DNA from: Aquamicrobium aerolatum DSM 21857 | Lineage (GTDB): Bacteria; Pseudomonadota; Alphaproteobacteria; Rhizobiales; Rhizobiaceae | Reading direction: 5' to 3' | DNA length: 64,000 nucleotides | Assembly (NCBI RefSeq): GCF_900113935.1 | Contig: NZ_FORF01000016.1 | Location: 1-64,000 of the forward strand | Shown here: positions 1-15,862 of the stretch, piece after piece | How the letters are laid out: the number at the start of each line of letters is the position of its first letter | How positions within the stretch are numbered: position 1 is the first letter of the stretch | Notes under the pieces: generated by a model | What the model was told of the DNA's origin: nothing | Seen by the model: only the letters and a program-made list of their open reading frames with translations | Databases searched by the model: none | Position numbers and translations under genes: made by a program

Positions 1-1949
1 CGCTTGTTCTGGCGATGTTCGACGAGGTCGTCGACGACGGTGGGGTCGGCGAGGGTTGAGGTGTCACCGAGCGCGCCGAAATCGTCCTCGGCGATCTTGC
101 GCAGGATGCGGCGCATGATCTTGCCCGAGCGGGTTTTCGGCAGGCCGGGCGCGAACTGCAACAGGTCAGGCGTGGCGATCGGGCCGATCTCCTGGCGCAC
201 ATGCGCAATCAGCTCCTTGCGCAGCGCGTCGCTTGGCTCCTCGCCCTCCATCAGCGTGACATAGCAATAAATGCCCTGCCCCTTGATGTCGTGCGGATAG
301 CCGACGACGGCGGCTTCCGACACCTTGTCATGCGCCACCAGCGCCGATTCGACTTCCGCCGTGCCCATCCGGTGCCCGGAGACGTTGAGCACGTCATCGA
401 CGCGGCCGGTGATCCAGTAATAGCCATCCTCATCGCGCCGGCAGCCATCGCCGGAAAAGTAGAGGCCCGGATAGGTAGCGAAATAGGTCTCGATGAAGCG
501 CTTGTGATCGCCATAGACGGTGCGCATCATGCCGGGCCAAGGTTCGGCGATACACAGATTGCCATCGGCAACGCCGTCGAGCACCTTGCCGTCATTGTCG
601 ACCAGCACCGGCTCGACGCCGAAGAATGGCCGTGTCGCCGAGCCCGGTTTCAGGTCGGTCGCGCCGGGCAGTGGCGAGATCAGGATGCCGCCATTTTCGG
701 TCTGCCACCAGGTGTCGACAATCGGGATCTTCTTGTCGCCGACCTTGTCGAAATACCATTCCCAGGCTTCCGGATTGATCGGCTCGCCGACCGAACCGAG
801 CAGCTTCAGGCTCTGGCGTGACGACCGCTTGACCCACTCCTCGCCCGCGCCCATCAGCGCGCGGATAGCGGTCGGGGCGGTGTAGAAGATGTTGACCTTG
901 TGCTTGTCGACGACATCCCAGAACCGGCCGGCATCGGGATAGTTCGGCACGCCCTCGAACATCAGCGTCGTCGCGCCATTGGCGAGCGGGCCATAGACGA
1001 TGTAGCTGTGGCCGGTGACCCAGCCCACATCCGCGGTGCACCAGTAGATGTCGCCATCATGGTAGTCGAAGACATATTGATGCGTCATCGACGCATAGAC
1101 GAGATAGCCGCCGGTGGTGTGCAGCACCCCCTTCGGCTTGCCGGTCGAGCCGGAGGTGTAAAGGATGAACAGCGGGTCTTCCGCATTCATCTTTTCGGGT
1201 TCGCACACAGGTTCGACCGCGCGCACTTCGGCATGATACCAAAGATCGCGCCCCTCGACCCAGCCGATCTTGCCGCCGGTGCGGCGCACCACCAGCACAT
1301 TCCTGACCGTGATGCCGTCACGGGCGGCAATGTCGACGGCCTTGTCGGCATTGACCTTAAGCGGAATTCCCTTGCCGCCGCGCAGGCCTTCATCGGCAGT
1401 GATGACGAAGGTGGATTTGCAATCGACGATCCGTCCGGCGAGCGCGTCGGGCGAAAAGCCGCCAAACACGATCGAATGGACCGCGCCGATGCGGGTGCAG
1501 GCCAGCATCGCATAGGCAGCTTCAGGGATCATCGGCATGTAGATGGTGACACGGTCGCCCTTCTTGACGCCGTGCTTCTTCATCACATTGGCAAGCCGGC
1601 AGACATGCTCGTGCAGCTCTCTATAGGTGATCTTCTTGTCGTCGAACGGATTGTCGCCTTCCCAGATGATCGCGGTCTGGTTGCCGCGCTTTTCCAGATG
1701 ACGGTCGATGCAATTGTAGGAAACGTTGGTCTCGCCGTCCTCGAACCATTTGATCGAGACATCACCCTCAAACGAGGCGTTCTTCACCTTGGTGTAAGGC
1801 TTGAACCAGTCGATCCGCTTGCCATGCTCACCCCAGAACGCATCCGGATCGGCAACACTTGCTGCATACCAATTCAGATACGTCTCGTTGTCGACCAGGG
1901 CGTTCTCTTTCCAAGACGGCTGAACGTGATGAACAACTGGACCGGTCAT
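1..1949 (-). CDS. acsA: acetyl-CoA synthetase (3' end cut by window edge)
   Basis: Activates acetate with ATP and CoA, through acetyl-AMP, to acetyl-CoA in the cytoplasm. The phosphate-binding loop [11 protein letters not shown] is at about residues 264-274. The A10 motif [11 protein letters not shown] carries the catalytic lysine at residue 610, which is also the usual acetylation site in this family. The reading frame runs off the window edge after residue 649, in ...EHRQNK; bacterial Acs is about 650 aa, so only the last few residues should be missing. The ATG at 1947-1949 has an AAGGAA-type ribosome site. It lies 107 bp downstream of the ABC transporter ATPase gene on the same strand, with a strong hairpin between them. 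The context of an ABC importer, ScfR-type regulator and CrbS-type kinase supports a role in acetate or short-chain acid scavenging. Identity is near certain; co-transcription with the transporter is inferred. Confidence 0.97.
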
Positions 1950-1978
1950 GCTTCGTTTCCTTCCATATCGATAAAGCA

Positions 1979-2015
1979 GTGCGCATCGCAGCTTGCTTGA
2001 GCGAGCGATGCGCAC
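1979..2015 (-). other. hairpin between the ABC transporter operon and acsA
   Basis: Perfect 11-bp inverted repeat: GTGCGCATCGC at 1979-1989 and its complement at 2005-2015, with a 15-nt loop that can pair partly. It lies in the 107-bp gap upstream of the acsA start. No long T run follows, so it may be an mRNA-stabilising or attenuating structure, or a weak terminator separating acsA from the transporter genes. Confidence 0.5.
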
Positions 2016-2056: not shown

Positions 2057-2818
2057 TCAGATGGCGAGATACTCGTTTCGCAATTCCGCGTTGTCGAGAA
2101 GCTCTTTCGCCGTACCGGTGAACACGATCTGCCCGGTATCCATGATCACAGCGCGATCCGACAGCCGCAACGCAGCCACCGCATTCTGCTCCACGATGAT
2201 TGTCGTGATGCCGCGCGCCTTGATGCTCTGCACAATGCGCTCGATCTCCTGCACGATCACCGGCGCAAGCCCTTCATAAGGCTCATCCAGCAAAAGCAGC
2301 TTGACCTCACGCGCCAGAGCACGCGCCACGGCGAGCATCTGCTGCTCTCCGCCAGACATCGTCACTGCTTCCTGGGTACGCCGTTCCGCAAGCCGGGGAA
2401 AATGTTCGTAGAGTTCTTCGATGGACATGCCGTGACCGGGAGCCACCTGCGCCAGGACGAGGTTCTCTTCGACCGTCATGCCCGGAATGATCCGGCGATC
2501 TTCGGGCACAAGCTGAATGCCTGCACGCGAGGCCTGCCACGACTTCTGGTTATGGAGTGGATTACCTTCCAGCCAGATTTCGCCCGACTTGAGCTCCGGA
2601 TTGTCCATCCGGGCGATTGCCCTGAGTGTCGACGTCTTTCCAGCACCATTGCGGCCCAGAAGCGCGAGGATCTCGCCCTTGTTCACATCGAGGCTGACGC
2701 CCTGCACGATGTAGCTCTCACCGTAATAGGCGTGAATATCCCTGACCGCAAAGAACTCGGCTGCCGCTGCAGAGCCTGCTGGCGTCCCCGCTGCAGGATG
2801 GCCCATGATGACACTCAT
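2057..2818 (-). CDS. ABC transporter ATP-binding protein, LivF type
   Basis: One of two ATPases powering the adjacent importer. Walker A GRNGAGKT is at residues 55-62, the signature SGGEQ at 155-159, Walker B LLLLDEP at 174-180, and the switch histidine position reads VEQN (Gln instead of His), as is usual in LivF proteins. Length is 253 aa, normal for LivF apart from an N-terminal extension of about 20 residues rich in Ala and Gly. Its start overlaps the stop of the upstream LivG-type gene by 4 bp (ATGA), which indicates translational coupling. It is the last gene of the transporter cluster before acsA. LivF family membership is clear. The substrate is not shown by this subunit, so no liv symbol is given. 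Confidence 0.92.
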   Translation of the reverse strand: MSVIMGHPAAGTPAGSAAAAEFFAVRDIHAYYGESYIVQGVSLDVNKGEILALLGRNGAGKTSTLRAIARMDNPELKSGEIWLEGNPLHNQKSWQASRAGIQLVPEDRRIIPGMTVEENLVLAQVAPGHGMSIEELYEHFPRLAERRTQEAVTMSGGEQQMLAVARALAREVKLLLLDEPYEGLAPVIVQEIERIVQSIKARGITTIIVEQNAVAALRLSDRAVIMDTGQIVFTGTAKELLDNAELRNEYLAI

Positions 2819-3588
2819 TCCACGCTCCCGCCCAGATAGGCTTCTTTCACACGGGGATCTTCCTTGATCTCCTGCGGCAGTCCGGTTGCGATGATGCGCC
2901 CCTGCGCCAGAACCGAGATCTTGTCCGCCAACGAAAACACGACATGCATGTCATGTTCGATGATGACTTTCGTCATCCCACGCGACTTGATCTTCTTCAG
3001 AAGGTCGATGGTCGTGTTGGTATCATGACGGCTCATGCCGGCGGTCGGCTCGTCCAGCAACAGCAGGCGCGGTCGCTGGATGAGGCACATGGCAAGTTCG
3101 AGGCGTCGCTTGTCACCGCGCGAGAGCGCGCCGGCAGTATGGTCCAGACGATCGACCAGGCCGATATCCTCAAGCAGGCTCAGCGCCTCATCGCGGATCT
3201 CGACTTCTGAATCCACCGACCGGAACATATTGGCCTTGAATGCGCCATCCCGGCGGGCGAATGCCGGCGCCATCACGTTCTGCAACACTGACAGGTCCGG
3301 AAAGATCTCTGGCGTCTGAAATACGCGAGAAATGCCCAGCTGATTGATCTCATGCGGCGCTTTTCCGGTGAGAACCGCGCCGTCGAAGATGACTGCCCCG
3401 CTGCTGGGGGGCAGTCTGCCGATGATGACATTCAGCAAGGTCGACTTACCGGCACCATTCGGCCCGATAATAGCATGCGTCTTGCCCTCTTCGATCTGCA
3501 GATCGATGTCCGACAGCGCGCGCAGGCCCCCGAAATTCTTCTGAATGTCTGCGGCGTGAAGGATGATGTTTGGTACAGCCTGTATCAT
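2815..3588 (-). CDS. ABC transporter ATP-binding protein, LivG type
   Basis: Second ATPase of the importer. Walker A GPNGAGKST is at residues 42-50, the signature reads LSRGDKR at 155-161 (a degenerate form common in LivG/UrtD proteins), Walker B LLLLDEP is at 175-181, and the switch region IIEHDM contains the His. Length is 257 aa, as expected. The stop overlaps the start of the LivF-type gene, and the start lies 12 bp after the stop of the LivM-type permease gene. It therefore belongs to one transcript running from the binding protein at 7214 down to 2057. The partner permeases should be the two genes immediately upstream. Confidence 0.92.
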   Translation of the reverse strand: MIQAVPNIILHAADIQKNFGGLRALSDIDLQIEEGKTHAIIGPNGAGKSTLLNVIIGRLPPSSGAVIFDGAVLTGKAPHEINQLGISRVFQTPEIFPDLSVLQNVMAPAFARRDGAFKANMFRSVDSEVEIRDEALSLLEDIGLVDRLDHTAGALSRGDKRRLELAMCLIQRPRLLLLDEPTAGMSRHDTNTTIDLLKKIKSRGMTKVIIEHDMHVVFSLADKISVLAQGRIIATGLPQEIKEDPRVKEAYLGGSVE

Positions 3589-3600
3589 GGTTCAATCATC

Positions 3601-4743
3601 CTATTCTGCTGGTTGCGGCGCGCGCGCCGGTCCGGCATTCGGTTTTTTCACCCTGCTGAACTTCGTGAACAGACGCTTTGCTCCCTCCACCAATCCACCC
3701 GGCAGGAAGACGACGATCAGCACGAACATCAGGCCCAGCGTCAGATGCCACCCCTCGCCGACAAACTTGGACGAGATCGTCACCATCACCGACTGCAGCC
3801 AATCCGGCAGGAAGGAAAAGAAGTTATTGAGCATGTTGGTGTTGATCGCCGAGAAAATGTTCTCGAAATACTTGATCAGCCACGCTCCGATGATCGGCCC
3901 GAACAATGTGCCCACGCCACCCAGGATCGTCATCAGCACGACGTTGCCGGATTCGGTCCATCTCATGCGCTCCGTTCCGGCAAGCGGATCGGTCACCGAA
4001 AGCAGCGCGCCTGCGAGGCCCGCAATCATGCCCGAGACGACGAATGCCGCGAGCGTATATGGCTTGGGATTGAAACCCGTGTACATCATCCGTGTCTGAT
4101 TGGACTTGATGCCACGCAGGGCCATGCCGAAAGGCGACGCAAAGATCTTCTGCGACAGGAAGAATACTGCGATCAGAATGACCGCCGTCAGATAGAATCC
4201 GCCGTACCCACCCAGAACATTTCCAAAAAGTGTCGGCTGCGGCAATCCCGAGCCGTAAGTGACGCCAAACAGCTTGTCGAAGTAGCGTAGATCATTGCCG
4301 GCCAGCAGCAGACCGGTTTCGCCATTCGTCAGCGGTGTCAGCACAGAATAAGCCAGACTGTAGCTCATCTGCGCGAACGCCAGCGTCAGAATGGAGAAAT
4401 AGATCCCGGTCCGGCGCAAACTGAAATAGCCAATGATCAGGGCGAACAGCCCAGAGATGATGACGGCAAAGACGATCGCCGGCAGAATATCCATCGTCAG
4501 CAGCTTGAACGACCAGACCGCGGTGTAGGAGCCGACCCCCACGAACGCTGCATGGCCAAAGGAGAGGTAGCCGGTCAGTCCGAACAGAATATTGAAGCCG
4601 ATGGCGAAGATTGCGTAGATTGCGAATTTCTGCATCAGCCCTGGATAGGCCGCTCCAAAGGGAGCGAGCCAGATCGGCATGGTCAGGACGACCGCCGAAA
4701 GCACCAGAAGCGAGATGAGATCCTTGCGAGATATTGAGAACAT
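3601..4743 (-). CDS. ABC transporter permease, LivM type
   Basis: Inner-membrane permease subunit of 380 aa with about ten hydrophobic segments. It has the typical LivM block [19 protein letters not shown] near residues 55-73 and the coupling-helix region [14 protein letters not shown] near 234-247. The C-terminus ends in a basic and Pro/Ala-rich cytoplasmic tail. It sits between the LivH-type gene (6 bp upstream) and the LivG-type gene (12 bp downstream). Family assignment is by motif and operon position. Substrate specificity in this family rests mostly on the periplasmic binding protein. Confidence 0.9.
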
Positions 4744-4749
4744 GGTGGA

Positions 4750-5778
4750 TCAGCTCTCCATGACGCCGCGACGTCCCATCAGGCCGCGCGGAAGCACGAG
4801 CAGGATGACGACTGCCACAAGATAGATAACGACTTGGTCGATGCCGGGTATCAGGGATTTCACCTCGGTCATTGACGCAATGGACTGGAGAATTCCAAGC
4901 AGGAATCCTGCCACCACGGCGCCCGGCAAAGACCCCATACCGCCGACAACCACGACGACAAAGCTCAGCACCAGGAAGTCCATGCCAAGATGATAGTTGG
5001 GCGGCAGCAGCGGCGTGTACATCACGCCGGCGACACCTGCCACGACGGCAGCAAGGCCGAAGACGATAGTGAACCGCCGGTCGATATCGATCCCCATGAG
5101 CCCGACCGTCTCACGGTCTGCCATGCCGGCGCGAACCACCATGCCAAAGGTGGTAAATTGCAGGAACGCAAACACCGCGCCTATGACAAACAGCGAGAAT
5201 GCCAGATAGACCAGACGCCACCAGGGATAGGTCAACATATGCGGATCCATCCCCAGCCAGACGCCGATATCGGCCGCGCTGCGCAGGTCGGATGGGATCG
5301 GCTGCGGATATGGATTCGCCCCGAAAAACGCCTTCACCACCTCCTGCAGGACGATCGCGAGACCGAAGGTCACCAGGATCTGTTCCGCGTGAGTTCTCTT
5401 GTAGAAATGCTTGATAAGACCGCGCTCCATGGCGATGCCAATGAGAAGCATGGTCGGCACGGCAAATAGCAGCGAGATCGGAACGGAGTAATCAACGATG
5501 ATCGCTCCGAAATCTCCGAACCAGTTCTGAACCAGTGGCGTCCTCACCTCGACCGGCGCGCCCCACGGCGTCAGCTTGGTCGGATCGACAGTCACTGTTT
5601 CGATCGTGATGAGATATCTGAAAGCCACGGCACAGAAGCAACCGAGCATGAACAGCGCGCCATGCGCAAAATTCACGACTCCGAGCGTGCCGAACACAAG
5701 TGTGAGGCCAAGAGCGATGAGCGCATAAGCGCCGCCCTTATCCAGCCCATTCAGCAACTGGGCTAAAAACGCGGTCAT
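4750..5778 (-). CDS. ABC transporter permease, LivH type
   Basis: Second permease, 342 aa. The N-terminus has the conserved LivH sequence LLNGLDKGGAYALIALGLTLVFG (split by a membrane helix), then NFAHGALFMLG near residues 36-46. A C-terminal half contains VVVGGMGSLPGAVVAGFLLG near 277-296. There is an unusually long periplasmic-type insertion around residues 60-95 rich in Thr, Pro and Val. It is transcribed downstream of the binding-protein gene after an 89-bp spacer that contains a strong hairpin, an arrangement that often lets the binding protein be made in excess. Confidence 0.9.
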   Translation of the reverse strand: MTAFLAQLLNGLDKGGAYALIALGLTLVFGTLGVVNFAHGALFMLGCFCAVAFRYLITIETVTVDPTKLTPWGAPVEVRTPLVQNWFGDFGAIIVDYSVPISLLFAVPTMLLIGIAMERGLIKHFYKRTHAEQILVTFGLAIVLQEVVKAFFGANPYPQPIPSDLRSAADIGVWLGMDPHMLTYPWWRLVYLAFSLFVIGAVFAFLQFTTFGMVVRAGMADRETVGLMGIDIDRRFTIVFGLAAVVAGVAGVMYTPLLPPNYHLGMDFLVLSFVVVVVGGMGSLPGAVVAGFLLGILQSIASMTEVKSLIPGIDQVVIYLVAVVILLVLPRGLMGRRGVMES

Positions 5779-5825
5779 TGATTTTTCCCCGATACGAGTT
5801 GCGACGCTCAGGCGTCGGACGTGCG

Positions 5826-5860
5826 GTTCAACCCGGCGACCTCGTGGCCGCCGGGTGAAC
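5826..5860 (-). other. intercistronic hairpin after the binding-protein gene
   Basis: Arms 5826-5841 and 5846-5860 pair over about 14 bp with one bulge and one mismatch, around a short loop. It lies just downstream of the binding-protein stop and upstream of the LivH-type gene. There is no T run. In many ABC import operons such a structure protects the 3' end of the binding-protein mRNA, or partly terminates transcription, so that binding protein exceeds permease. That role is inferred here. Confidence 0.5.
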
Positions 5861-5867
5861 TCTCACA

Positions 5868-7214
5868 TCAGCACTGATTGGGCTCGTAAGGGCCGAGTTC
5901 CCCTTCAAAGATCGACGGGTCGTAGGTAACCTCTTCACGCGGCGTCTTGCCGATGAGGTTGAGCACGTCGAAGCGGCTGGTCGGGTTCTCATTGCCACGC
6001 ACCACCAGAACTTCCTTGATGCACTGGTGATCGTCGGCGCGGTACAGCGTCGGGCCGTTACCCATTCCGTCGAACTCAAAGCCTTCGAGGGCCTTGATGA
6101 CTTCCGGCGGGTAGAAGGTGCCGGCACGCTCGACAGCGTCTGCATAAAGCAGCGCCTGGACGTAACCGGTGTGAGCGGACTGCGACGGCGGGACACCGTA
6201 TTCTTCACCATAGGACTTGGTGAACGCCTTGCTGCCCTCATCCTCGAGCTGCCAGTTCCAGTTCTGGGTGCCGACAATGCCCTTCACTGCATCGCCCGCG
6301 CCCACGGCCATCAGCTCGGAGAACATCGGCACGACGATCTCGAACTGCTTGCCGTTGGCCATACGCTCGCGCAGGCCGAACTGAACTGCCTGTGGCAGTG
6401 AGTTCACCATGTCGTGGCCATAGTGGTTGATGATGAGGATGTCTGCGCCCGAATGCGCAACAGGCGTGAGGTACTGCGAGAAGTCACCAAGCCCCAGCGG
6501 CGTGCGGACTGCGGCAACCGTTTCCCAGCCGAGAGCTTCAGTAGCGGCCTTCATCGACGCTTCCTGAGACCAGCCCCAGTTATAGTCGGCGGTGATGTGA
6601 TATGCGCGGCGGTCCTTGCCGTATTCACGCTCGAGAATCGGCGCGATGGCGATACCGGTCTGGTGCGCGTTGAAATAGTGGCGGAATCCGTAGCGACGCT
6701 TGTCCTTGCCGGTGGTCTCGTTGCCGTGCGTAAGGCCCGACATGTAGATGACGCCCATTTCCTGGCAGAGCGACTGCTGGGCCACGGCTTCACCGGTGGT
6801 CACGCAACCTGTGACCATGATCACGCCGTCGCGCTCGATCATGCGGCGGGCACCGTCGCGGGCGGCGTCGGTATTGGTCTGGGTATCGCCGGTGACGTAT
6901 TCGACCTTGCGGCCCAGAACGCCATTGCCCTTGAGTGTTTTCGGGCTGAACGTGTTCAGCAGCCCGCCGTCCCCCTCACCATTGAGGTGCTTGATCGCAA
7001 GCTTGTATCCGCTCAGCTGCTCCATGCCCTCCTCGGCATAGGAACCTGTCTGCGGCACGTTGAAGCCAAAAACGATCTTCCCGACGCTATCGGGATTGTT
7101 GCAGAAATTGTCGGCCCATGCGCCCTTGGTAAAAAAGTGCGGTGTGCTCAGCGTGACCAACCCGGCGCCTGCTCCCTTCAGGACACCACGTCGGTTCATT
7201 TGAAATTTAGTCAT
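5868..7214 (-). CDS. periplasmic substrate-binding protein of the ABC importer (Peripla_BP_6 family), Tat-type signal
   Basis: 448-aa binding protein of the branched-chain amino acid/amide type. The N-terminus contains a twin-arginine motif, NRRGVLKG, followed by a hydrophobic stretch and the site AWA/DNF, so folded export by Tat is likely. The mature part has the family hallmarks QTGSYAEEGMEQ, GVLGRKVEYVTGDTQTN and HITADYNWGWSQ. The ATG at 7212-7214 is preceded by GGAGGAG about 6 nt upstream; the longer upstream frame lacks a comparable site. It is the first gene of the importer cluster. It is larger than classical LivJ (about 370 aa) and resembles amide- or urea-type relatives. With acsA downstream and an ScfR-type regulator divergent, a short-chain carboxylate or its derivative is a reasonable substrate guess, but no residue proves it. 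Confidence 0.88.
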   Translation of the reverse strand: MTKFQMNRRGVLKGAGAGLVTLSTPHFFTKGAWADNFCNNPDSVGKIVFGFNVPQTGSYAEEGMEQLSGYKLAIKHLNGEGDGGLLNTFSPKTLKGNGVLGRKVEYVTGDTQTNTDAARDGARRMIERDGVIMVTGCVTTGEAVAQQSLCQEMGVIYMSGLTHGNETTGKDKRRYGFRHYFNAHQTGIAIAPILEREYGKDRRAYHITADYNWGWSQEASMKAATEALGWETVAAVRTPLGLGDFSQYLTPVAHSGADILIINHYGHDMVNSLPQAVQFGLRERMANGKQFEIVVPMFSELMAVGAGDAVKGIVGTQNWNWQLEDEGSKAFTKSYGEEYGVPPSQSAHTGYVQALLYADAVERAGTFYPPEVIKALEGFEFDGMGNGPTLYRADDHQCIKEVLVVRGNENPTSRFDVLNLIGKTPREEVTYDPSIFEGELGPYEPNQC

Positions 7215-7369
7215 CTCAGTTCTCCTCCACGAGTAACCAGTTGATCCGCAAAGGAGAGGAGATCGTGTACAAATATGCAACAGCCTATTGTTTTATAATG
7301 ACAAATTTGTAATTTACCCACTTAATGTAAAGCAATATCTGTAAACGTTTGCACTTTCCGGGGGAGATA
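7215..7369. promoter_or_regulatory. divergent promoter/operator region between the importer and the ScfR-type regulator
   Basis: This 155-bp AT-rich island separates two divergent genes. It contains a perfect palindrome acaaatttgt at 7301-7310. It also has TTTGC-type half-sites: aacgtttgcac around 7344-7353, and an inverted copy aatatgcaac around 7272-7281. RamB-family regulators are known to bind TTTGC-containing sites, so these are candidate operators. I cannot assign exact -35 and -10 boxes with confidence. Confidence 0.45.
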
Positions 7370-8899
7370 ATGCGAGCACCTACAGGCATTCAGATCCGTC
7401 GCAAGAGGCTCGAGACCGGCCTGTCACAGGCAGCGCTTGCCCGGGCCGTCGGAATTTCAGCGACCTATCTCAATCTCATCGAGAACAATAAGCGAGCTAT
7501 CGGTGGAAAGTTGCTGGTGCGCATCGGCGAACGGCTCGGGCTCGACCTCGACCAGCTGTCAGGTGTGAGCGAAGCGCGCTCCATTCAGGTGATCGAGGAA
7601 TTACTGGGCGACCCGGCAATGCGCGGCATTGTTTTCGAACAGGCAGCGATTCGCGATCTGGTCGCCCGCTTTCCGGAGGCCGGAATTGCGATGACCCGGC
7701 TCTACCGGCTGTATCAGGACGCAAGCGCCAATATCGAATCCTACATCAATCGCCTACGCTCGGACCCGCTTCTGTCTCAGATGCTGCACCAGGTGCTCAA
7801 TCGGATATCGGCCATCCGGTCGGTGGCAGAGATTCTGGAGCATGAGCCTGATATCCCGCAGGCCGATGAACGACGGTTTGTGGTCACGATCAGCCGTGAA
7901 AGCGAAGGTCTGACCGATGCCTTGAAAAGCCTCGTCGAATATTTCGACCGGACTGCCTCGACACAACGTCCGGTATCGCCGCTGGCCGATCTGGATGAAG
8001 CGATCATTGCGCATCGCAACCATTTTCCGGAGCTGGAAAATGTTGCAGATGACCTGCGCAAGCTGTTTCCGGAAGAACTGTCCGCGCGGACATTGGCACA
8101 GGCGCTGGAAGCAGATTTCGGCATCAGCTGCGAAGAATTGGAGCCTGAAACGCAGACGGCCCAGCGCTATTTCTTTGACAAGGCGTCAAACCGGCTTTTG
8201 TTCAGGACGTCGGTGTCGAATTCCACGCGACTGTTCCAGATGGTCCAGCTCTACGCGCAGATGGCTGCTCGCGATGCCATCCTCGAGACGGTTGGTTCCC
8301 TCAGGCTCCACTCGCCCGAGGCGAACGCGCTCGCCGAGCGGGCGATGGCAGCCTATGTCGCCGGCGCAATGATGATGCCCTACGAGCGCTACCTCCAGGA
8401 CGCAGAGCTCCTTCGTTATGACATCGATGCCCTTGGACGGAGGTATGGCACCAGCTTTGAACAAGCCGCTCATCGTCTTGTGACCATGCGCAGAAAGGGC
8501 GCGGAAGCGGTCCCGTTCGGCTTTCTGCGCGCCGATCGCGCAGGTCGTCTGAGCAAGCGATATCCCTTGCCCGGCCTCTCGCTTCCGGTCTCCGGCTATG
8601 GCTGCCTGTTGTGGCCGATTTACAGGACGAATGGCGACAACACCTTCGTGCGACAGGTCGCGGAGTTTCCCGGCGGCGAACGTTTCCTGCTCATCGCAAG
8701 GACCGTGGCCAAGAACTCGCATAGTTTCAGGGACGACGCGCCCACCTACTCCGTGATGCTGGCCTGCGACCTCATGCACGCCGACCGCACGGTCTATGCG
8801 GATGCCATCGATCTGCGACACCGGGGTGTTCCCGTTGGCCCGTCATGCCTGCTCTGTCCGCGACAGGATTGCGGCCACCGTCAGGAGCGCAACGCCTGA
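7370..8899 (+). CDS. XRE-family short-chain acyl regulator (ScfR/RamB type) with a DHp-like insert
   Basis: Transcription factor of 509 aa. An XRE helix-turn-helix spans about residues 5-62 (LSQAALARAVGISATYLNLIE). Residues 132-193 resemble the dimerisation helices of a histidine kinase (see findings). A degenerate M78/ImmA-like region without HExxH lies near 310-380. The C-terminal DUF2083 ends with the family cysteine motif CLLCPRQDCGHR. RamB of Corynebacterium, a relative with HTH and DUF2083, controls acetate and glyoxylate genes. The ATG at 7370 has a GGGGGAGA site; the in-frame TTG at 7349 does not. It is divergent from the importer and its last 19 bp overlap the convergent kinase gene. 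It probably controls the importer, acsA and itself, using an acyl-CoA or related ligand (inferred). Confidence 0.88.
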   Translation: MRAPTGIQIRRKRLETGLSQAALARAVGISATYLNLIENNKRAIGGKLLVRIGERLGLDLDQLSGVSEARSIQVIEELLGDPAMRGIVFEQAAIRDLVARFPEAGIAMTRLYRLYQDASANIESYINRLRSDPLLSQMLHQVLNRISAIRSVAEILEHEPDIPQADERRFVVTISRESEGLTDALKSLVEYFDRTASTQRPVSPLADLDEAIIAHRNHFPELENVADDLRKLFPEELSARTLAQALEADFGISCEELEPETQTAQRYFFDKASNRLLFRTSVSNSTRLFQMVQLYAQMAARDAILETVGSLRLHSPEANALAERAMAAYVAGAMMMPYERYLQDAELLRYDIDALGRRYGTSFEQAAHRLVTMRRKGAEAVPFGFLRADRAGRLSKRYPLPGLSLPVSGYGCLLWPIYRTNGDNTFVRQVAEFPGGERFLLIARTVAKNSHSFRDDAPTYSVMLACDLMHADRTVYADAIDLRHRGVPVGPSCLLCPRQDCGHRQERNA

Positions 8900-11619
8900 A
8901 CGTGTTCGCATTGCGCATGCAGCGGAAGACTGACCCGGAAACAGGCGCCGTTCAGCCGTCCTTTGACCAGCGATAATGTGCCGCCCAGACGCTCCACGAT
9001 TCTGTAGCTGATGTTGAGGCCCAACCCCAGCCCGACACCGGCACCAGACTGCACCGAGCTTCCTGCCCTGACGAACTTGTCGAAAATGCTCTCGCGATAG
9101 GCTTCGTTGATGCCGCTGCCATTGTCGGAAATCTCCACGATGTAACATCCGTTCTCGATGAACGAGGTCACGTGAACTCTCGGATCCGAGGCATCATTGT
9201 GAGAGATTGCGTTGGCAATGATGTTGATGAAAACCTGACTGAGGCGACCCGCGTCTGCGAGCACCCAGCCACAACAGACGCGCGCCCCCAATTCGATCGA
9301 TATCATACGCCGCCTTGCCAGCGCCTCGCAGACGGCGATCGACCGATCCAGAACGGCCTCGCCATTGCTGGGTGCGTTCTCCCAGTTGCGCTCGCCATGT
9401 TCAAGCGCGCTGAGGTCCAGAATTTCCTCGATCAGCCTCGTCAAGCGCACGCTCTCATTGTGGATCGTGGAGATGAAGCGATCGATCTGTTCCGGAGAAA
9501 GATCCTGTTCTGTCATCAGGATCTCAGAGAAGGAACGGATCGACGTCATCGGCGTGCGAATTTCATGGCTCACCTGCGACAGGAAGTCGTCCTTCTGCCG
9601 ATGCAATTCCTGCAACTTGGCATTGGCCTCCTGCAACTGCTGGGCTGCAATACGAAGTTCTCGCGATTTTTCTTCCAGTTCGTGCGAATATTCGATGGCT
9701 TGCTGGGTCTCGTCGGCCATCCGCATCACCTCTTCAAGCGAGATGCTGTCCTTGGCCACCACTGTGGTCAGCAGGATGTGCGCAGACGCTGACCCGATGG
9801 AGCCAGCAAGCTCCTTCTCCAGCTTCGTGATGAAATCTGGCGGAACATCGGCGTCGCCATTTGATGGACCACGGTCGATACCCGACGCTTCAAACAGTGC
9901 CGTGGCCTGCTTCCAGCCCAGCACGCGCTCCGCCACCAGGAACAGGTCGCCCGTCGTCACCGAACCCCTGGCAATATGCGGCTGCATGGAGGCGCGTCGC
10001 TGAAACGCGTCGACAAACAACGTAGCCTGTATCCTCTCCATCGCCTCTTGCGAGGTCGACATCGAAACGACCACCAGCACGGACACGTTGACGAGCAGGC
10101 TCCAGAAGACCGAATGGACCAGCGGATCAATATCGGTCAAACCGAACATTGCCTCCGGCCGAAGCGAGGTAATCCCCCAGGGCCCATGCTCCATGAGAAC
10201 TGCAATTGCCGGGCTGGTCGTTTCAAAACTGGGCATGAAAAGCGTCCACGCCCACACGAAAAACCCGAGCAGCGTGCCATAGAATGCGCCCTGGACAGTG
10301 GCGTGACGCCAATAGAGCGCGGCCAGCAGCGCCGGCAGGAATTGCGCGACGCCTGCAAACGAAATCAGGCCGATGGGTGCGAGCGCATCCGAATCCTTGG
10401 CAAACCAGAAATAGAGGAAACCCAGCAGCAGCATCACCGCGATCGACACGCGCCGCGCGCGCAGCATCAGCCGCGCGATCCCCCTCTCGCCCGTTTCTTC
10501 GGGAAAACGCGCTCCGCGCAGGAGCAATGGCAATACAACGTGATTGGAAACCATGATCGACAGCGCGATTGAGGCGACGATGATCATCGATGTCGCGCTG
10601 GAAAAGCCCCCGATAAACGCAAACAACGCCAGCGCATCATACCCTGCCGACATTGGCAGGGTCAGCACGAACATGTCCGGGTTGGAGCCTTCAGGCATCG
10701 TGGCGAGGCCGTAATAGGCAATCGGCATCGTGAAGATGCTCATCAGCAGAAGATATGCAGGAAAGGCCCATCCGGCCGTGCGCAAATGATCTTCGTTCGA
10801 ATTCTCGACGACAGTGATCTGAAACTGCCGCGGCAGGCAGATAACCGCACATGCCGACAAGGCAAGGACTGCCACCCATCTGCTCCCAAGAGGCTGCTGC
10901 TCATGAATATCGAGGCCTGCTTCGACCGCTTTGGTGAAGATGTCGCTTGCCCCGCCACCAAGACCGAACACCACGAAAACTCCGACCGCCAAAAGTGCAA
11001 TCAGCTTGACCACCGCCTCGAACGCAATCGCGGCAACGACACCGGGATGCTGTTCGCGCGCATCGACATTTCGCGTGCCAAACAGGATGGTGAACAGCGC
11101 CATGCCCACCGCGACACCGAATGCCAGCGTCAGCTCGTCAAGACGCGCAAGATGGTCTTCGCCACCCTTCGCGACAGAAACCGCCTGGATTGACGTCGTG
11201 ATGGCCTTCAGCTGCAGCGCGATATAGGGCGTGATGCTGACGACCGCGATCAGGGTCACCAACACTGCAAGCCGGCTGGATTTACCAAAGCGCGACGACA
11301 AAAAGTCGGCGACCGAGGTGATGCGTTGCGCATGACTGATATGGATCAGCTTGCGAAGCATGAACCACCAACCGACAAAAACGATGGTCGGCCCCATATA
11401 GATGGCGAGGAACTCCAGCCCGTTACGTGCAGCGGTGCCGACAGCGCCGTAGAACGTCCAGGAGGTGCAATAGACCGAGATCGACAGCGTGTAGATCGCC
11501 GGCGAGCGCAGAAAATGAGCATAGCCGCTATGGGCGTGCTGTTCCGAAACCCAGGCGATCAGAAACAGAAGCCCGACATAGGCAACGCCGGTCAGAATCA
11601 CGAAATCCGGAGAAAGCAT
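8881..11619 (-). CDS. sodium/solute symporter-histidine kinase hybrid sensor (CrbS/CbrA type)
   Basis: 912-aa membrane sensor. Residues 1 to about 520 form an SLC5 (SSS) symporter-like domain with about 13 helices. A linker (about 540-640) resembles the STAC domain, followed by a coiled coil at 640-675. The HisKA domain has phospho-accepting His685 in SQVSHEIRTP, and the HATPase domain has N box NIIANAISHND, G1 box DNGSGINE and G2 box GVGLGLGL. It lacks a C-terminal receiver, unlike some relatives. CrbS in Vibrio controls acs and acetate use; CbrA in Pseudomonas controls carbon/nitrogen use. Its start overlaps the stop of the small membrane protein gene by 1 nt, and a single-domain receiver gene lies first in the operon. 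Its 3' end overlaps the regulator gene at 7370-8899. Confidence 0.93.
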   Translation of the reverse strand: MLSPDFVILTGVAYVGLLFLIAWVSEQHAHSGYAHFLRSPAIYTLSISVYCTSWTFYGAVGTAARNGLEFLAIYMGPTIVFVGWWFMLRKLIHISHAQRITSVADFLSSRFGKSSRLAVLVTLIAVVSITPYIALQLKAITTSIQAVSVAKGGEDHLARLDELTLAFGVAVGMALFTILFGTRNVDAREQHPGVVAAIAFEAVVKLIALLAVGVFVVFGLGGGASDIFTKAVEAGLDIHEQQPLGSRWVAVLALSACAVICLPRQFQITVVENSNEDHLRTAGWAFPAYLLLMSIFTMPIAYYGLATMPEGSNPDMFVLTLPMSAGYDALALFAFIGGFSSATSMIIVASIALSIMVSNHVVLPLLLRGARFPEETGERGIARLMLRARRVSIAVMLLLGFLYFWFAKDSDALAPIGLISFAGVAQFLPALLAALYWRHATVQGAFYGTLLGFFVWAWTLFMPSFETTSPAIAVLMEHGPWGITSLRPEAMFGLTDIDPLVHSVFWSLLVNVSVLVVVSMSTSQEAMERIQATLFVDAFQRRASMQPHIARGSVTTGDLFLVAERVLGWKQATALFEASGIDRGPSNGDADVPPDFITKLEKELAGSIGSASAHILLTTVVAKDSISLEEVMRMADETQQAIEYSHELEEKSRELRIAAQQLQEANAKLQELHRQKDDFLSQVSHEIRTPMTSIRSFSEILMTEQDLSPEQIDRFISTIHNESVRLTRLIEEILDLSALEHGERNWENAPSNGEAVLDRSIAVCEALARRRMISIELGARVCCGWVLADAGRLSQVFINIIANAISHNDASDPRVHVTSFIENGCYIVEISDNGSGINEAYRESIFDKFVRAGSSVQSGAGVGLGLGLNISYRIVERLGGTLSLVKGRLNGACFRVSLPLHAQCEHVQALRS

Positions 11620-11903
11620 CAGACGATGCCTGTCCGCTTGGCGCGTGGGTGCTTGTCATCCATCCCGGACCCGCCCGGCCCGGCAGATGGAAGCAGAAAC
11701 GCCAATGCGACAGCTGCCCCAACCAGAAACAGCCATACGCCAAACAGATAGACAATTTCGAGAGGAATCCCGAAGACGCGCACGCGCACGATGAAGAGGT
11801 TGGCGAGCAACGGCATCAACAGAACGACACCGAAGGCAGGGATTATCACGGATAGATTTTGACGCTTGCCGTCGGCCTCGCGCGACCATCGCCTCTCAGG
11901 CAT
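11619..11903 (-). CDS. small two-helix membrane protein coupled to the symporter kinase
   Basis: 94-aa protein with a basic, charged N-terminus, two hydrophobic helices (about residues 18-38 and 43-65, the latter VYLFGVWLFLVGAAVALAFLL), and a Gly/Pro-rich then basic tail. The chosen ATG (11901-11903) lies 8 bp inside the end of the receiver gene. Its stop overlaps the kinase start by one base, so the three genes are translationally coupled. Pseudomonas CbrX is a small protein placed the same way before CbrA, and YjcH precedes the acetate permease ActP. I infer a helper or stabiliser of the symporter domain. No enzymatic motif is visible. Confidence 0.75.
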   Translation of the reverse strand: MPERRWSREADGKRQNLSVIIPAFGVVLLMPLLANLFIVRVRVFGIPLEIVYLFGVWLFLVGAAVALAFLLPSAGPGGSGMDDKHPRAKRTGIV

Positions 11904-12270
11904 GATGAAGCGCCAGCATCCGCCGCACCTCGGCGACGACGTCCGTGTTGGCATAGGGCTTGGTTATGAAGCCATCAGCGTTGAGTTCAGCGGCAAGTTC
12001 ACGGTCATATTGCTGGCCCCGCGCTGTCAGAACCACGACAGCGGTCTTTGTCATGCCCGGGTCCGCGCGGATCGCCTTCAGGACGTCAAGGCCGCTTTTC
12101 TTCGGCAACATGATATCGAGCAGAAGCATCCTGGGCTTGAGCCGCCTGACAGCTTCTAAAGCAAGATCCCCATCCCTGGCCGAAGCCACCGTCCATCCGT
12201 TCCGCCCGAGTATAAAACTGAGCGAATCGAGAATAGCTGGCTCATCTTCGACAATCAAAATGTCGGTCAT
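11896..12270 (-). CDS. single-domain response regulator
   Basis: 124 aa, receiver domain only. Acidic pocket residues E8 and D9, phospho-acceptor D52 in LLLDIMLP, T82 in VLTARG, and K104 in FITKPY are all present, so it should accept phosphate from the kinase at 8881-11619. There is no output domain, unlike CrbR (LuxR type) or CbrB (NtrC type). The ATG at 12268-12270 has GGGGGAG upstream; the longer frame starting at 12339 is less likely. It is the first gene of a three-gene overlapping operon. With no DNA-binding part it must act on another protein, and the nearby regulator with a kinase-like dimerisation segment is an obvious candidate (inference). Confidence 0.9.
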   Translation of the reverse strand: MTDILIVEDEPAILDSLSFILGRNGWTVASARDGDLALEAVRRLKPRMLLLDIMLPKKSGLDVLKAIRADPGMTKTAVVVLTARGQQYDRELAAELNADGFITKPYANTDVVAEVRRMLALHHA

Positions 12271-12885
12271 AGTCACTCCCCCAAATCTTGACCCGTTGAT
12301 CGGGCTCTTTTTCTGTTCCTCCTGCGACCCTGCATTCATGGCGGTCGATGTCGCCGCCCTTTTCCAGTCTCAGGAGCAGATCGGTCCCCTCCTCAAGGAA
12401 CTCGATCCTGACAGATCAGGTGCTGATAAAAATGCAGCATCGGCGCACAGGTTTCGCAAAGGTCTTTGACAAAGACTCTTGTTGCCAACCTGCGCAAATT
12501 GCACGGCACCCGCCTTGAAAGCCTCCTCGGATCTAAAAGTTCGGCAATTCTTGCTCTTCTTGCTACGGAAAAAACATTCTCCAGCAGCGGCTGGTTCTGC
12601 CGACACCATATTCTTGAGATTGCCAGCTAGCGTGCAATTGTCAACTCGCATCGCCTCGGTCTTGCGACCGGTTCCCGTCCGGATCGGAAAGCGCAGGCAC
12701 GCCCTGAAACCATTCCGGCAGTTCAGGAGCGCATTTCCCTCGTCGGGACGGCGTCGACGAACCGCAGCCAGGTCATCGCTTCCTCGGAAGCAACGAGCCC
12801 GACTTGATGGCTGCAGCCATTTGAGAGCGGAGATGGAGGTAGAATATGTCGCCGACGGCGGTTCGCACAAATTGCGTGCTATGGG
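12271..12885. other. intergenic region without a recognisable gene
   Basis: About 615 bp between the receiver gene and the hairpin cluster. Open frames here have no ribosome sites and no recognisable protein character. The part next to 12270 must hold the promoter of the receiver-kinase operon. TTTGC-containing stretches occur on the minus strand around 12452-12460 and 12490-12500 and resemble those in the 7215-7369 region. Nothing else can be assigned. Confidence 0.5.
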
Positions 12886-13062
12886 CTGCCTGCGCGGAGC
12901 AATGCCGCGCAGGCAGTCGGTCGTTTCCGGCTTCCGGCAGGCCGGAAACCCGTCATTTCTGGAGCATCGGACCGAAAAGTGTACCCGGTTTTCGGATTAT
13001 TCCGATGCTCATTCAAAGTGTTAGAGCGTCCTTTGTGCGTCCAATTGGACGCACGGCGCTCT
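12886..13062. repeat. cluster of four hairpins (mosaic repeat) at the end of the TRAP operon
   Basis: Four consecutive inverted repeats. A 12-bp stem pairs 12886-12897 with 12905-12916. A 9-bp stem pairs 12923-12931 with 12941-12949. A two-part stem pairs 12962-12978 with 12989-13010, having the flank gagcatcgga and inner ccgaaaa. The last is a palindrome with core gtgcgtccaattggacgcac at 13035-13054. The last hairpin ends in gcgctctaaa, which supplies the TAG stop of the dctM-like gene. The structure resembles intergenic mosaic elements of rhizobia and may also act as a terminator. Confidence 0.7.
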
Positions 13063-14335
13063 AAAACATCAGCTTTGGCAATGTGGTGCTGATCGCCGGA
13101 ACGTAGGAGACGAGCATCAGGGCCACCACCATCAGGAGAATTGTCGGGATAGCTGCCTTGAACACCTCGCCAAGCGTCATCTTGGAAATCCCCATGGCGA
13201 CGAACAGATTGAGGCCGACCGGGGGCGTCAGCATGCCTACCGACAGATTGACCAGCATGATGATACCGAAATGGATCGGGTCCACGCCAACCGAAGCTGC
13301 AATTGGCTGCATCAGCGGTGCCAGGATGATGATCGCAGACGCACTGTCGAGAAAACAGCCAGCCACGAGCAGGATCAGGTTGAACAACATCACGATCACG
13401 ACCGGATTGTCTGTACCTGACAGTATGTATGCCGCCAGCTGCGATGGCGCACCGCTATTTGCCAGAAGCCAGGAGAAAGACGACGCACCGGCGGTAATCA
13501 GCAGCAACGGCCCTGCCAGCAACCCCGTATTGCGAAGAATTATCAAGGTTTCCTTGGGTGAAATGGTCCGATAGACGAACGCGCCGATGAAGTAGCCGTA
13601 AAGACAGGCAGCTGCCGCAGACTCGGTCGGGGTGAACACCCCGCTATAAATGCCGCCGAGCAGAACCACTGGCAGCCCCAGTCCCCAGGCCGAGCGCTTG
13701 AACGCTGCCGAGATCGAGGCCAGCGTCGGAAACGGATCACGCGGATACTTCTTGATGGCGGAGTACCAGCTTGCATAGAGGATCAGCATCCCGCCGATGA
13801 GAAGCGCCGGGAACAGCCCGGCCGCAAACAGCTGCCCGACAGATGTCGCCGTGACCGATCCATAGATGATCAGCGCGATTGAAGGCGGGACGATCGGCCC
13901 GAGCGTTCCCGATGTCGTGATCAGCCCGATGGCGAAATACTTGTTGTAGCCGGCAGCAACCATCGCCGGATACATGATCGTTCCGATCGCGATCACCGTC
14001 GCGGGACTTGAGCCGGAAATCGAGCCGAACATCAGGCAGGCGACGACCGACGCGGCAGCAAGGCCGCCCGGCAACCAGCCGATCAAGGCGCGCGCCAGTC
14101 CGATCAGCCTGTCGGACAGGCCGCCAATCCGCATGAGTTCCGCAGCCAGAATGAAGAACGGAATCGACATCAGGGAGAAGTTGTTCATCCCCGAGAACAT
14201 GCGCATGGGTACAACCAGCGGATCCACGCCGCCGTTGAAATAAAGGACCGCGACCACTGCCAGTGCAAGGCTTGCAAAAATCGGCAAGCCGAAGAACAGG
14301 ATCACAAAAAAGGTAGGAAGAAGCGATGCGACCAT
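13061..14335 (-). CDS. TRAP transporter large permease (DctM family)
   Basis: 424-aa inner-membrane subunit with about 11-12 helices. It has the DctM signatures FGLPIFASLALAVVAVL near the N-terminus, GGLAAASVVACLMFGSISGSS near residues 90-110, and TPTESAAAACLYG in the middle. The C-terminal half contains a repeat of these features (LTPPVGLNLFVAMG). It uses an ion gradient with the small permease and the binding protein to import the ligand. The gene follows the small permease gene by 11 bp. The stop codon lies within a repeat hairpin. Confidence 0.94.
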   Translation of the reverse strand: MVASLLPTFFVILFFGLPIFASLALAVVAVLYFNGGVDPLVVPMRMFSGMNNFSLMSIPFFILAAELMRIGGLSDRLIGLARALIGWLPGGLAAASVVACLMFGSISGSSPATVIAIGTIMYPAMVAAGYNKYFAIGLITTSGTLGPIVPPSIALIIYGSVTATSVGQLFAAGLFPALLIGGMLILYASWYSAIKKYPRDPFPTLASISAAFKRSAWGLGLPVVLLGGIYSGVFTPTESAAAACLYGYFIGAFVYRTISPKETLIILRNTGLLAGPLLLITAGASSFSWLLANSGAPSQLAAYILSGTDNPVVIVMLFNLILLVAGCFLDSASAIIILAPLMQPIAASVGVDPIHFGIIMLVNLSVGMLTPPVGLNLFVAMGISKMTLGEVFKAAIPTILLMVVALMLVSYVPAISTTLPKLMF

Positions 14336-14346
14336 GATGTCTGAGC

Positions 14347-14856
14347 CTATGCGTTCTTGATTTCAGATTTTGGGGGCTCGTAGTCGCGACCCGCCCCAAG
14401 CTCGCTCAACACCAGGCAATAGCGCAGTGCCATCAGCAGGCCCGAGATTGGGATGATCAGATACACATATCCGACCGGGATTCGCATGGCGGGCGACAAT
14501 TGTCCCATGCGAAGCGTGTTCTGCGAAAGGCGGTAGCCGTAATAGATGAGGATGACGGCAAACCCGACGCCCATCAGCGCCGCGATCACATGCATGGCAC
14601 GCGCGGCTTTGGGGCCGACAAAAGCAAGTCCGGCATCCACGCTGATATGAGCTGCGTAGCGCACACCCATGCCCATGGTCAAAAAGCTCATGGTGATGAG
14701 CGAATACAAGATCAGCTCTTCAGACCAGTACAGCGAATTGTTGAACACGTAGCGAGCTGCAACCTGCACGATCGCTGTAACGGTAGCGATCAGCATCAGC
14801 GCAGTGACGAGGATGTTTTCCACCCAGTCAGCAATGCGATTAATCGAACTTATCAT
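14347..14856 (-). CDS. TRAP transporter small permease (DctQ family)
   Basis: 169 aa with four hydrophobic helices. The family pattern NRIADWVENILVTALM is at the N-terminus, the conserved WSEELILYSLITMSFL is near residues 43-58, and a glycine-rich end helix follows. The ATG at 14854-14856 is preceded by a G-rich ribosome site and lies 22 bp beyond the stop of the binding-protein gene. The longer frame to 14910 would overlap that gene and is rejected. It works with the neighbouring large permease and binding protein. Confidence 0.9.
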   Translation of the reverse strand: MISSINRIADWVENILVTALMLIATVTAIVQVAARYVFNNSLYWSEELILYSLITMSFLTMGMGVRYAAHISVDAGLAFVGPKAARAMHVIAALMGVGFAVILIYYGYRLSQNTLRMGQLSPAMRIPVGYVYLIIPISGLLMALRYCLVLSELGAGRDYEPPKSEIKNA

Positions 14857-14878
14857 TCTGTCGACCCCCCGTGCGCTC

Positions 14879-15862
14879 TTAGCCGCGAGCCGTCGAAATC
14901 GCCTTTTCAAGCAACTCCGGCGTCACCTTGTCCTTGAACTCTTCATAGATCGGCTGCGACGCTTCGATGAAAGCAGCGCGACCTTCCGGGCTCAACTCGA
15001 TGATCTGGATCTGATCCTTGATCTCGTCGTGGACAGTTGCCTCATATTCGACGGTGAACTCGCGACCGGCATCACGCCCGACAGCCATCGCATCTTCCAC
15101 CACCTTCTGCAGGTCTTCCGGAAGGCTCTCCCAGGCCTGCTTGTTCATCACCGCGGCATAGGTGTGATACGTGTGATTGGTGAGCGTCATGTACTTCTGA
15201 ACTTCGTAGAAGCGCATGGAGTTGATGTTCGAGTAAGGGTTCTCCTGCCCCTCAACGACACCCTGCTGCAAGCCGTTGTAGACTTCGGTGAACGCCATTG
15301 CGGTCGGATTTGCGCCATAAGCCCGATAGGTCGCAAGCACGGTCGGAGCCTGCAGCGTGCGGAACTTGATGCCCTTCAGGTCGTCCGGCCCGTTGATCGG
15401 ACGGATATTGTTGGTCATGTGGCGGAAGCCCGCCCCCCACATCGAAATGCCCTTGAGATTGTTGTCACCCAGCGTGCCCAGCACTTCCTTGCCGACTTCG
15501 CCGTCGAGAACGCGCTTCATCGACTCCTGGTCGGTCATCAGGAAAGGAAGGTCGAGGAGATAGAACTTCTCGTTGAAATTGGTCAGGTTCGCGGTCGGCG
15601 GAATTGCAAAATGGACCAGTCCCATCTGCGTCTGCTCGATGATCTCCACGTCGCCGCCGAGCATCGCAGCAGGTCGGATTTCGATCGCGATACGGCCGTC
15701 GGAGTTCTTCTCGACCTCGGCCTTGAACACTTCGGCGGCGCGGGCGACTGGCGTCGATTCATTCAGCACGTGAGCGAACGTGAACGTGAACTCCTGAGCA
15801 AGGAGTGTGCTCGTGCCGCTGAAAAGCAAAGCGGATGTCAGAGCGAGGATAGTTTTCTTCAT
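14879..15862 (-). CDS. TRAP transporter substrate-binding protein (DctP family)
   Basis: 327 aa. A Sec signal peptide (MKKTILALTSALLFSGTSTLLA, then QEFTF) sends it to the periplasm. The family block KFRTLQAPT near residue 165 carries the arginine that in DctP proteins binds the ligand's carboxylate. FTEVYNGLQQGVVEGQENP follows. This suggests a carboxylate-bearing ligand. It is the first transporter gene after the amidase gene (20-bp gap), so the ligand may be an amide acid, or the amidase product's parent. Start ATG at 15860-15862; earlier Met codons lie inside the amidase gene. Confidence 0.93.
   Translation of the reverse strand: MKKTILALTSALLFSGTSTLLAQEFTFTFAHVLNESTPVARAAEVFKAEVEKNSDGRIAIEIRPAAMLGGDVEIIEQTQMGLVHFAIPPTANLTNFNEKFYLLDLPFLMTDQESMKRVLDGEVGKEVLGTLGDNNLKGISMWGAGFRHMTNNIRPINGPDDLKGIKFRTLQAPTVLATYRAYGANPTAMAFTEVYNGLQQGVVEGQENPYSNINSMRFYEVQKYMTLTNHTYHTYAAVMNKQAWESLPEDLQKVVEDAMAVGRDAGREFTVEYEATVHDEIKDQIQIIELSPEGRAAFIEASQPIYEEFKDKVTPELLEKAISTARG

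Follow-up and report, generated by a model that had tools for sequence, protein, structure and literature searches.

The window analysed here, the first 64,000 nucleotides of contig NZ_FORF01000016.1 of Aquamicrobium aerolatum DSM 21857, carries three neighbouring genes for a transcription regulator of the ScfR family, a histidine kinase with an SLC5-type transporter domain and a single-domain receiver (Table 1). Regulator (+) and kinase (−) converge with 3′ ends overlapping by 19 bases, and kinase and receiver both lie on the minus strand, a point absent from the original prediction, which was made from the sequence letters. That prediction held that the regulator contains a segment homologous to the dimerisation and histidine phosphotransfer (DHp) domain of the neighbouring kinase, with the phospho-accepting His conserved, and that the receiver would dock on both proteins. 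We find that the regulator segment is a DHp domain by descent and that it probably serves as the place where the receiver meets the regulator.

Regulator residues 132-182 form a gapless alignment with kinase residues 677-727 at a constant offset of 545, with 21 of 51 residues identical and the kinase phospho-acceptor His685 in the column of regulator His140; the alignment first reported is thus reproduced in its coordinates, offset, identity and His pairing. The best local alignment between the kinase and the regulator from residue 116 onward, a part that includes the segment, reaches a score of 102. In 1000 shuffles of the regulator no score was as high (mean 40.6, standard deviation 5.4, maximum 69), and BLASTP of the pair returns an E value of 2e-7 over 75 columns. 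Since the window copy is barely seen by the Pfam HisKA model (13.1 bits, E 0.1, cut-off 26.9; no match at E 0.01 for its isolated 110-residue piece), the homology is argued through relatives. Pfam HisKA matches 31 of 76 family segments at E ≤ 0.01 (best 2.8e-11), so that a HisKA profile check, proposed along with the original claim, holds for these relatives and fails for the window member, which stays below the cut-off. A profile of the 76 segments finds Thermotoga maritima HK853 as its top match in the PDB (E 2e-4) and matches a profile of 29 kinases from the gene cassette described below with a probability of 99.3 and an E value of 1.4e-20. Together with the shuffles, this last comparison lends strong support to the homology first claimed.

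The regulator as a whole belongs to the ScfR/IsaR group (RamB, PccR, MccR and Mycobacterium tuberculosis PrpR), with which it shares an XRE-type helix-turn-helix (Pfam HTH_3, residues 9-63), a Peptidase_M78/IrrE-like core (250-370), the ScfRs C-terminal domain (372-505) and a C-X2-C-X4-C motif, the latter found in 95 of the 96 family regulators with an uncut C-terminal end. In fold, the whole model comes closest to PrpR, a protein described in the available text of PMC6765138 as binding acyl-CoA and a 4Fe-4S cluster ligated by the cysteines of this motif. By family, our regulator would also sense acyl-CoA, helped by an iron-sulfur cluster. It is not RamB itself, given that the NCBIfam RamB model matches far under its cut-off (278.9 bits against 700).

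In the AlphaFold2 model of the whole regulator the mean predicted local distance difference test score (pLDDT) is 90.2, with dips to 64 at residues 121-130 and 62 at 191-200. The original prediction had staked itself on a HisKA-like fold at residues 132-193, and the two-helix hairpin of HisKA/DHp domains is indeed predicted there, with helices at 133-158 and 164-198; modelling of the piece alone gives the same hairpin (mean pLDDT 78.6). A fold search with this piece places chains of HK853 on top, several of them in complex with the receiver RR468, at an E value of only 0.1, and also lists unrelated non-kinase helical proteins, as expected for a bare hairpin. DHp fold and position of the H box are as in T. 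maritima HK853-RR468 and Escherichia coli EnvZ-OmpR. Unlike HK853 and EnvZ, the regulator has no catalytic domain (no HATPase_c match in a Pfam scan of the window regulator), most of its relatives lack the acidic residue next to the His and all 101 lack the proline of the H box.

These relatives were collected from 61 genomes of the family and 190 genomes of the class, and from named genomes scanned with the N-terminal half of the regulator as query. The best 80 of at least 589 confirmed matches were used, a choice that favours insert-bearing regulators since the query included the segment; they come from Devosia, Maritalea, Pelagibacterium, Nisaea, Thalassospira, many Rhodobacteraceae (e.g., Ruegeria) and Burkholderiales metagenome bins. 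With 23 class and family loci and the window this makes 104 regulators, or 101 after dropping three duplicates. The segment is present in regulators of Devosia, Thalassospira, Ruegeria, Rubrivivax and others. ScfR homologs are of two kinds, many matching only the flanks of the segment and fewer matching across it, and in 20 paralogs of the former kind the flanks join with about 60 fewer residues than in hairpin-bearing regulators. By these comparisons the hairpin is an insert of about 60 residues marking an ScfR subfamily. The 20 paralogs, of which three belong to the genome of the window and several share their genome with an insert-bearing regulator, were picked among matches breaking off near the segment, which makes the absence of the insert partly a matter of selection, so that their neighbourhood is the real control: an SLC5 kinase was found on the stretch of none of the 20, another kinase match in four and some receiver match in three (one of them, L195, a receiver of 127 residues).

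Two kinds of regulator within the collection stand somewhat apart. A short form of under 470 amino acids accounts for 39 of the 96 with an uncut C-terminal end (L089 among them being cut at the front); examples are L140, L144, L150, L152, L170 and L176, mostly from Rhodobacteraceae. It retains helix-turn-helix, hairpin and usually the Cys motif, and matches the window regulator weakly overall, as if its ligand-binding core were reduced or diverged. At the other end, a plasmid of Neorhizobium sp. SOG26 (L197) encodes a regulator 46% identical to ours over 99% of the length, at a place where the record lists no genes.

Among kinases, the nearest relatives of the hairpin are, by profile comparison, the SLC5-type kinases of the cassette. 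The window kinase combines SSF (residues 49-452, E 1.1e-5), HisKA (675-742) and HATPase_c (789-901) domains. Searching the 22 HisKA domains of its genome with the regulator-segment profile gives 59 bits for the linked kinase and 24 for the next one, and for 81 of 84 regulators the linked kinase scores higher than any of 20 other kinase domains from the window genome. Across the 190 class genomes (at most 24 candidates scored per genome), a regulator-hairpin profile has 46 matches at E ≤ 1e-12, 22 of them regulators and the other 24 all inside SLC5 kinases found by the kinase search. In a quickly built tree of 85 DHp domains over 78 columns, used for this grouping and not for deep order, all 34 sampled regulator hairpins fall on one side of a branch with a Shimodaira-Hasegawa-like approximate likelihood ratio support of 100. 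This pattern fits one old insertion followed by joint inheritance, not a recent copy.

His140 is among the best kept residues of the hairpin. Its column holds His in 98 of 101 regulators, strongly supporting the conserved phospho-acceptor of the original claim, and is one of just two columns that do not vary among the 76 aligned segments; flanking residues vary while it stays. Counting from this His, 100 of 101 regulators have Ser, Thr or Asn at +4; I155, F170 and L181, which probably lie in the core, hardly vary. An acid (Glu or Asp) stands at +1 in 38 of 101, and the +5 Pro, present in 84 of 84 kinases, occurs in none of the 101. With no ATPase domain either, the profile is not that of a histidine kinase, in agreement with the earlier view that autophosphorylation is unlikely. 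In HisKA domains, according to the available text of Willett and Kirby (PMC3510030), the +1 acid is needed for kinase and not for phosphatase activity and the +4 Thr/Asn for phosphatase and not for kinase activity. On account of these roles the retained residues would be those facing a phosphorylated receiver, and the regulators seem mostly to have shed the residues of autophosphorylation while keeping those that meet such a receiver.

Three regulators, L080 (15602-17218, +), L081 (2515-4131, −) and L070 (8765-10495, −), carry Phe, Phe and Gln, respectively, where the others have His, together with Thr, Thr and Ser at +4. None of them has a receiver or kinase within 1.5 kb (for L080 and L081 the kinase-receiver pair lies about 7.5 kb away), and none of the 85 regulators with a receiver or kinase within that distance has lost the His, which the window also keeps. 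L080 and L081 being of the same genus, the losses amount to about two events. The link between segment, His and kinase expected at the outset mostly stands, as a tie to the kinase type, and gives way in these three cases, where the His is lost and the kinase is not adjacent. They are natural test cases of docking without phosphotransfer.

The receiver, called an orphan in the original prediction, turns out to be a standing member of a three-gene cassette. Regulator, receiver and SLC5 kinase occur on one stretch in 84 of 101 unique loci, window included and truncated contigs counted as misses, which strongly supports the earlier tie of the regulator segment to the neighbouring receiver. The order is regulator-receiver-kinase on one strand in 78 of the 83 cassettes besides the window, while the regulator converges with kinase and receiver in the window, L077 and L079; the odd gene order of L115 was traced to one overlong reading frame. 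All 84 receivers match Response_reg, none has an output domain, and all keep the equivalents of the acids at 31 and 32 (Asp32), Asp75 and Lys127 as well as Thr or Ser at 105. The window receiver may alternatively begin at an internal start at 12270.

Of the 17 loci without a full cassette, seven are at or near a contig end (L098, L112, L117, L129, L133, L146 and L165). L071 has its receiver, with the kinase on another contig; the receiver of L074 (325 amino acids) was excluded by our length filter, and no receiver was found on the stretches of L085 and L126. At L089 the regulator adjoins a kinase of another kind. A whole-genome check of L070, L123, L130, L137 and L158 located such a kinase elsewhere in four of the five, that of L158 being only a piece at a contig edge, and no kinase of the SLC5 cassette type in the genome of L123. 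Among the 190 class genomes, 21 have both regulator (profile match of at least 77 bits, 22 genomes) and kinase (end-to-end match of at least 690 bits, 25 genomes; 20 further places matching only the transporter half were left out), one has the regulator only, four the kinase only and 164 neither (Fisher 6e-23, indicative only, since the sample contains related genomes).

The regulator-only genome (G124) is 68% complete. On its contig (L089) the regulator has a hairpin close to the kinase sequence (HELRTLLT) and adjoins a receiver-containing gene and a different histidine kinase, which matches the window's in its core only (643-901). The converse is seen at L090, L091, L092 and L093 (G116, G111, G191 and G147), where an SLC5 kinase and a receiver-like gene are found with no insert-bearing regulator above threshold; there the pair may act on a different output or be older than the regulator.

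The homology, the insert, the cassette and the conservation are computed; receiver docking and what it does to regulation, along with the nature of the signal and of the target operon, we infer. In an ancestor, a DHp hairpin would have been inserted between the DNA-binding and ligand-binding parts of an ScfR/IsaR regulator. Today the transporter part of the kinase would meet a small solute outside and the kinase would phosphorylate the lone receiver, steps of established two-component chemistry. The outputless receiver would then dock on the regulator hairpin around His140, as on the kinase, and might transfer its phosphoryl group to that residue, much as happens with Spo0B or ChpT. Docking or transfer would change the grip of the regulator on the divergent operon upstream, so that an outside signal, arriving via the receiver, would be combined with an inside product, acyl-CoA. 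We put the probability that receiver docking on the hairpin is the main input to the regulator at roughly 0.7. A phosphorelay from kinase His through the lone receiver Asp to regulator His140 is more tentative, something on which we would not quite offer even odds, and transfer to His140 is the least certain part of the explanation. On the strength of its His, its +4 residue and the intact receivers the hairpin may be a phosphotransferase of the Spo0B/ChpT kind.

Several observations weigh against docking and transfer, both of which are reached by an indirect route. Hairpins do not clearly favour the kinase of their own cassette, which has a median rank of 30 of 84 (11 for the window) and a mean score of 75.7 against 70.8 for the others, and the few columns of the DHp tree leave the attachment point of the hairpins among the kinases unsettled. 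A covariation analysis of 84 triples (effective number about 58) points neither way: between the coupling maps for kinase-receiver and regulator-receiver, the in-register agreement of 0.216 is no better than the 0.211 obtained when one is shifted by 8. Positions +7, +11 and +12 are given as the three main specificity positions of EnvZ in the available text of PMC2991266; +7 stays Thr, Ala or Ser in the regulators and +11 is mostly Ser (92 of 101), but +12, Phe in 83 of 84 kinases, is mostly Thr, Ser, Ala or Val, so the kinase surface was not copied whole. The commonest +4 residue, Ser (54 of 101), is not the Thr/Asn of HisKA phosphatases. Finally, since the His is absent in three of 101 regulators that yet keep Ser or Thr at +4, transfer to His is not universal.

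In a sub-case of the docking model, not exclusive of it, the receiver is a stoichiometric co-regulator that docks without transfer and His140 is a mere contact; the hairpin might even strip the receiver of its phosphate, using the +4 residue as a phosphatase would. We regard it as possible though doubtful. The +4 Ser/Thr/Asn, kept in all three His-less regulators, would suit it, Thr/Asn at +4 being the phosphatase residue of HisKA domains in the available text of PMC3510030. The preponderance of Ser would not, and an invariant His is more than a contact seems to need. Alternatively the hairpin could pair with the kinase DHp, tethering the regulator to the membrane kinase or allowing its direct phosphorylation. 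A mixed DHp dimer is formed by RetS and GacS, the SLC5 kinases are the nearest relatives of the hairpin and the likely core positions are nearly invariant; such pairing would, however, leave without a role a receiver that is intact throughout and encoded between both genes in 78 of 83 cassettes, and the sampled hairpins group apart with no clear preference for their own kinase. We therefore consider pairing unlikely.

DHp domains dimerise and XRE regulators bind DNA as dimers, which makes it conceivable that the hairpin is a spare dimerisation module whose His persists for structural reasons or through slow drift. A His constant amid varying neighbours, and a tight co-occurrence with kinase and receiver that a spacer would not need, make this very unlikely. 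Helical hairpins can look alike, and the likeness was first seen between neighbouring genes, where recent gene conversion might be suspected. We rejected both conversion and chance or low-complexity similarity of helices, on the shuffles, the profile-profile E value, the supported branch holding all 34 sampled hairpins and the spread of the segment over several genera; together they retain a negligible probability.

The docking reading places the locus among several known systems. Spo0B and ChpT are DHp-like phosphotransferases whose two-helix hairpins dimerise, and the regulator resembles them in its hairpin. The latter differs from both in being built into a DNA-binding transcription factor, with no ATPase-like domain after it. 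In ChpT, as described in the available text of PMC3433190, the His shuttles phosphate without kinase activity of its own within a dimerising two-helix hairpin; its Pro38, at the H box, has no counterpart in the regulator hairpin. The kinase, by its SSF match an SLC5-domain protein, is of the kind known from CrbS/CrbR, RpuS/RpuR and CbrA/CbrB, where fusions of SLC5 transporter and histidine kinase control the use of small carboxylates and where CrbR and RpuR are LuxR-type response regulators (available text of PMC9100948). Here the receiver is outputless in 84 of 84 cases and the DNA-binding protein bears a DHp hairpin instead. A STAC domain, part of CrbS-type SLC5/STAC systems, was not among the Pfam matches of the kinase, in which no search aimed at STAC was made. 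In the available text of the open-licence literature searched, we met no account of an ScfR or any other XRE regulator that contains a DHp domain. The comparison suggests a two-component system whose transcription factor carries a kinase-side domain, as a variant of known systems.

For single-domain receivers without output the target is often unknown, and here genome context points to a target and to a docking site at residue level. If the docking reading is true, this two-component system is wired backwards, with a kinase-side domain on its transcription factor, and a kinase-type DHp inserted in a metabolic regulator is an evolutionary route by which a kinase's receiver comes to control that regulator. 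Similar outputs elsewhere could be recognised by the pattern H-x-x-x-S/T/N within an insert of about 60 residues. Should the relay also hold, the usual layout, a receiver fused to a DNA-binding part, would be reversed, and there would be a class of histidine-phosphorylated transcription factors joining an outside signal with acyl-CoA and iron-sulfur sensing.

Table 1. Features of the cassette and its upstream region in the window
Feature	Coordinates	Strand	Basis
acs, acetate--CoA ligase, end of importer operon, reaches window edge	1..2015	−	NCBIfam TIGR02188
Divergent ATP-binding cassette (ABC) importer operon, urea/branched-chain type, likely regulator target	2057..7280	−	Family models; cassette neighbours
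Three one-mismatch matches to TTTACAAA / TTTGTAAA (at 7266, 7306 and 7338), before the regulator	7266..7345	.	Motif scan
ScfR-family regulator (REG) with inserted DHp-like hairpin, 509 amino acids	7370..8899	+	Pfam; AlphaFold2
Long linker helix ahead of hairpin, residues 102-130	7673..7759	+	AlphaFold2; pLDDT 64 in 121-130
DHp-homologous segment of the original finding, residues 132-182	7763..7915	+	Alignment, shuffles, profile-profile E 1.4e-20
DHp-like helix 1, residues 133-158, bears His140	7766..7843	+	AlphaFold2 models
His140 codon, aligned with kinase His685	7787..7789	+	His in 98/101 unique regulators
DHp-like helix 2, residues 164-198	7859..7963	+	AlphaFold2; pLDDT 62 in 191-200
C-X2-C-X4-C motif of ScfR/IsaR regulators, residues 493-501	8846..8872	+	Motif pattern
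SLC5 (SSF)-type histidine kinase (KIN), 912 amino acids, convergent with REG	8881..11619	−	Pfam
Kinase HisKA/DHp domain; His685 codon 9565-9567	9394..9597	−	Pfam HisKA; genome HisKA search
Single-domain receiver (RR); phospho-acceptor Asp75 codon 12115-12117	11896..12339	−	Pfam Response_reg

Upstream of the regulator, the divergent importer operon encodes a binding protein, two permeases and two ATPases, with urea-transporter models all below their cut-offs, and ends in acs (TIGR02188, 1039 bits against a cut-off of 725). In 45 of 84 cassettes the divergent gene closest upstream is a homolog of the one for the binding protein, and an acs-like gene lies on the stretch in 17 of 84. The importer/acs operon is the likely target of the regulator, and the imported substrate is perhaps a small carboxylate or amide.

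No exact TTTACAAA occurs in the window within 300 bases upstream of the regulator. Over this distance exact copies precede 54 of 100 family regulators and 9 of 20 control ScfR genes, and none of 86 kinases or 86 receivers; given its presence before the controls, the motif seems general to ScfR and not linked to the hairpin. It fits a candidate ScfR operator through which the regulator would control itself and the importer. The RamB-type operator, which we take to be TTTGCAAA, is one base away from TTTACAAA; considered as the operator of the family, it was rejected as rare (3 of 100), TTTACAAA being strongly enriched instead.

Just beyond the receiver gene, at 13061-14877 on the minus strand, lies the large permease of a tripartite ATP-independent periplasmic (TRAP) transporter (TIGR00786, over its cut-off), accompanied by a probable small permease gene. 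Another conserved neighbour of the cassette, represented at L155 by 13900-15090 (+), has homologs in 24 of 84 loci.

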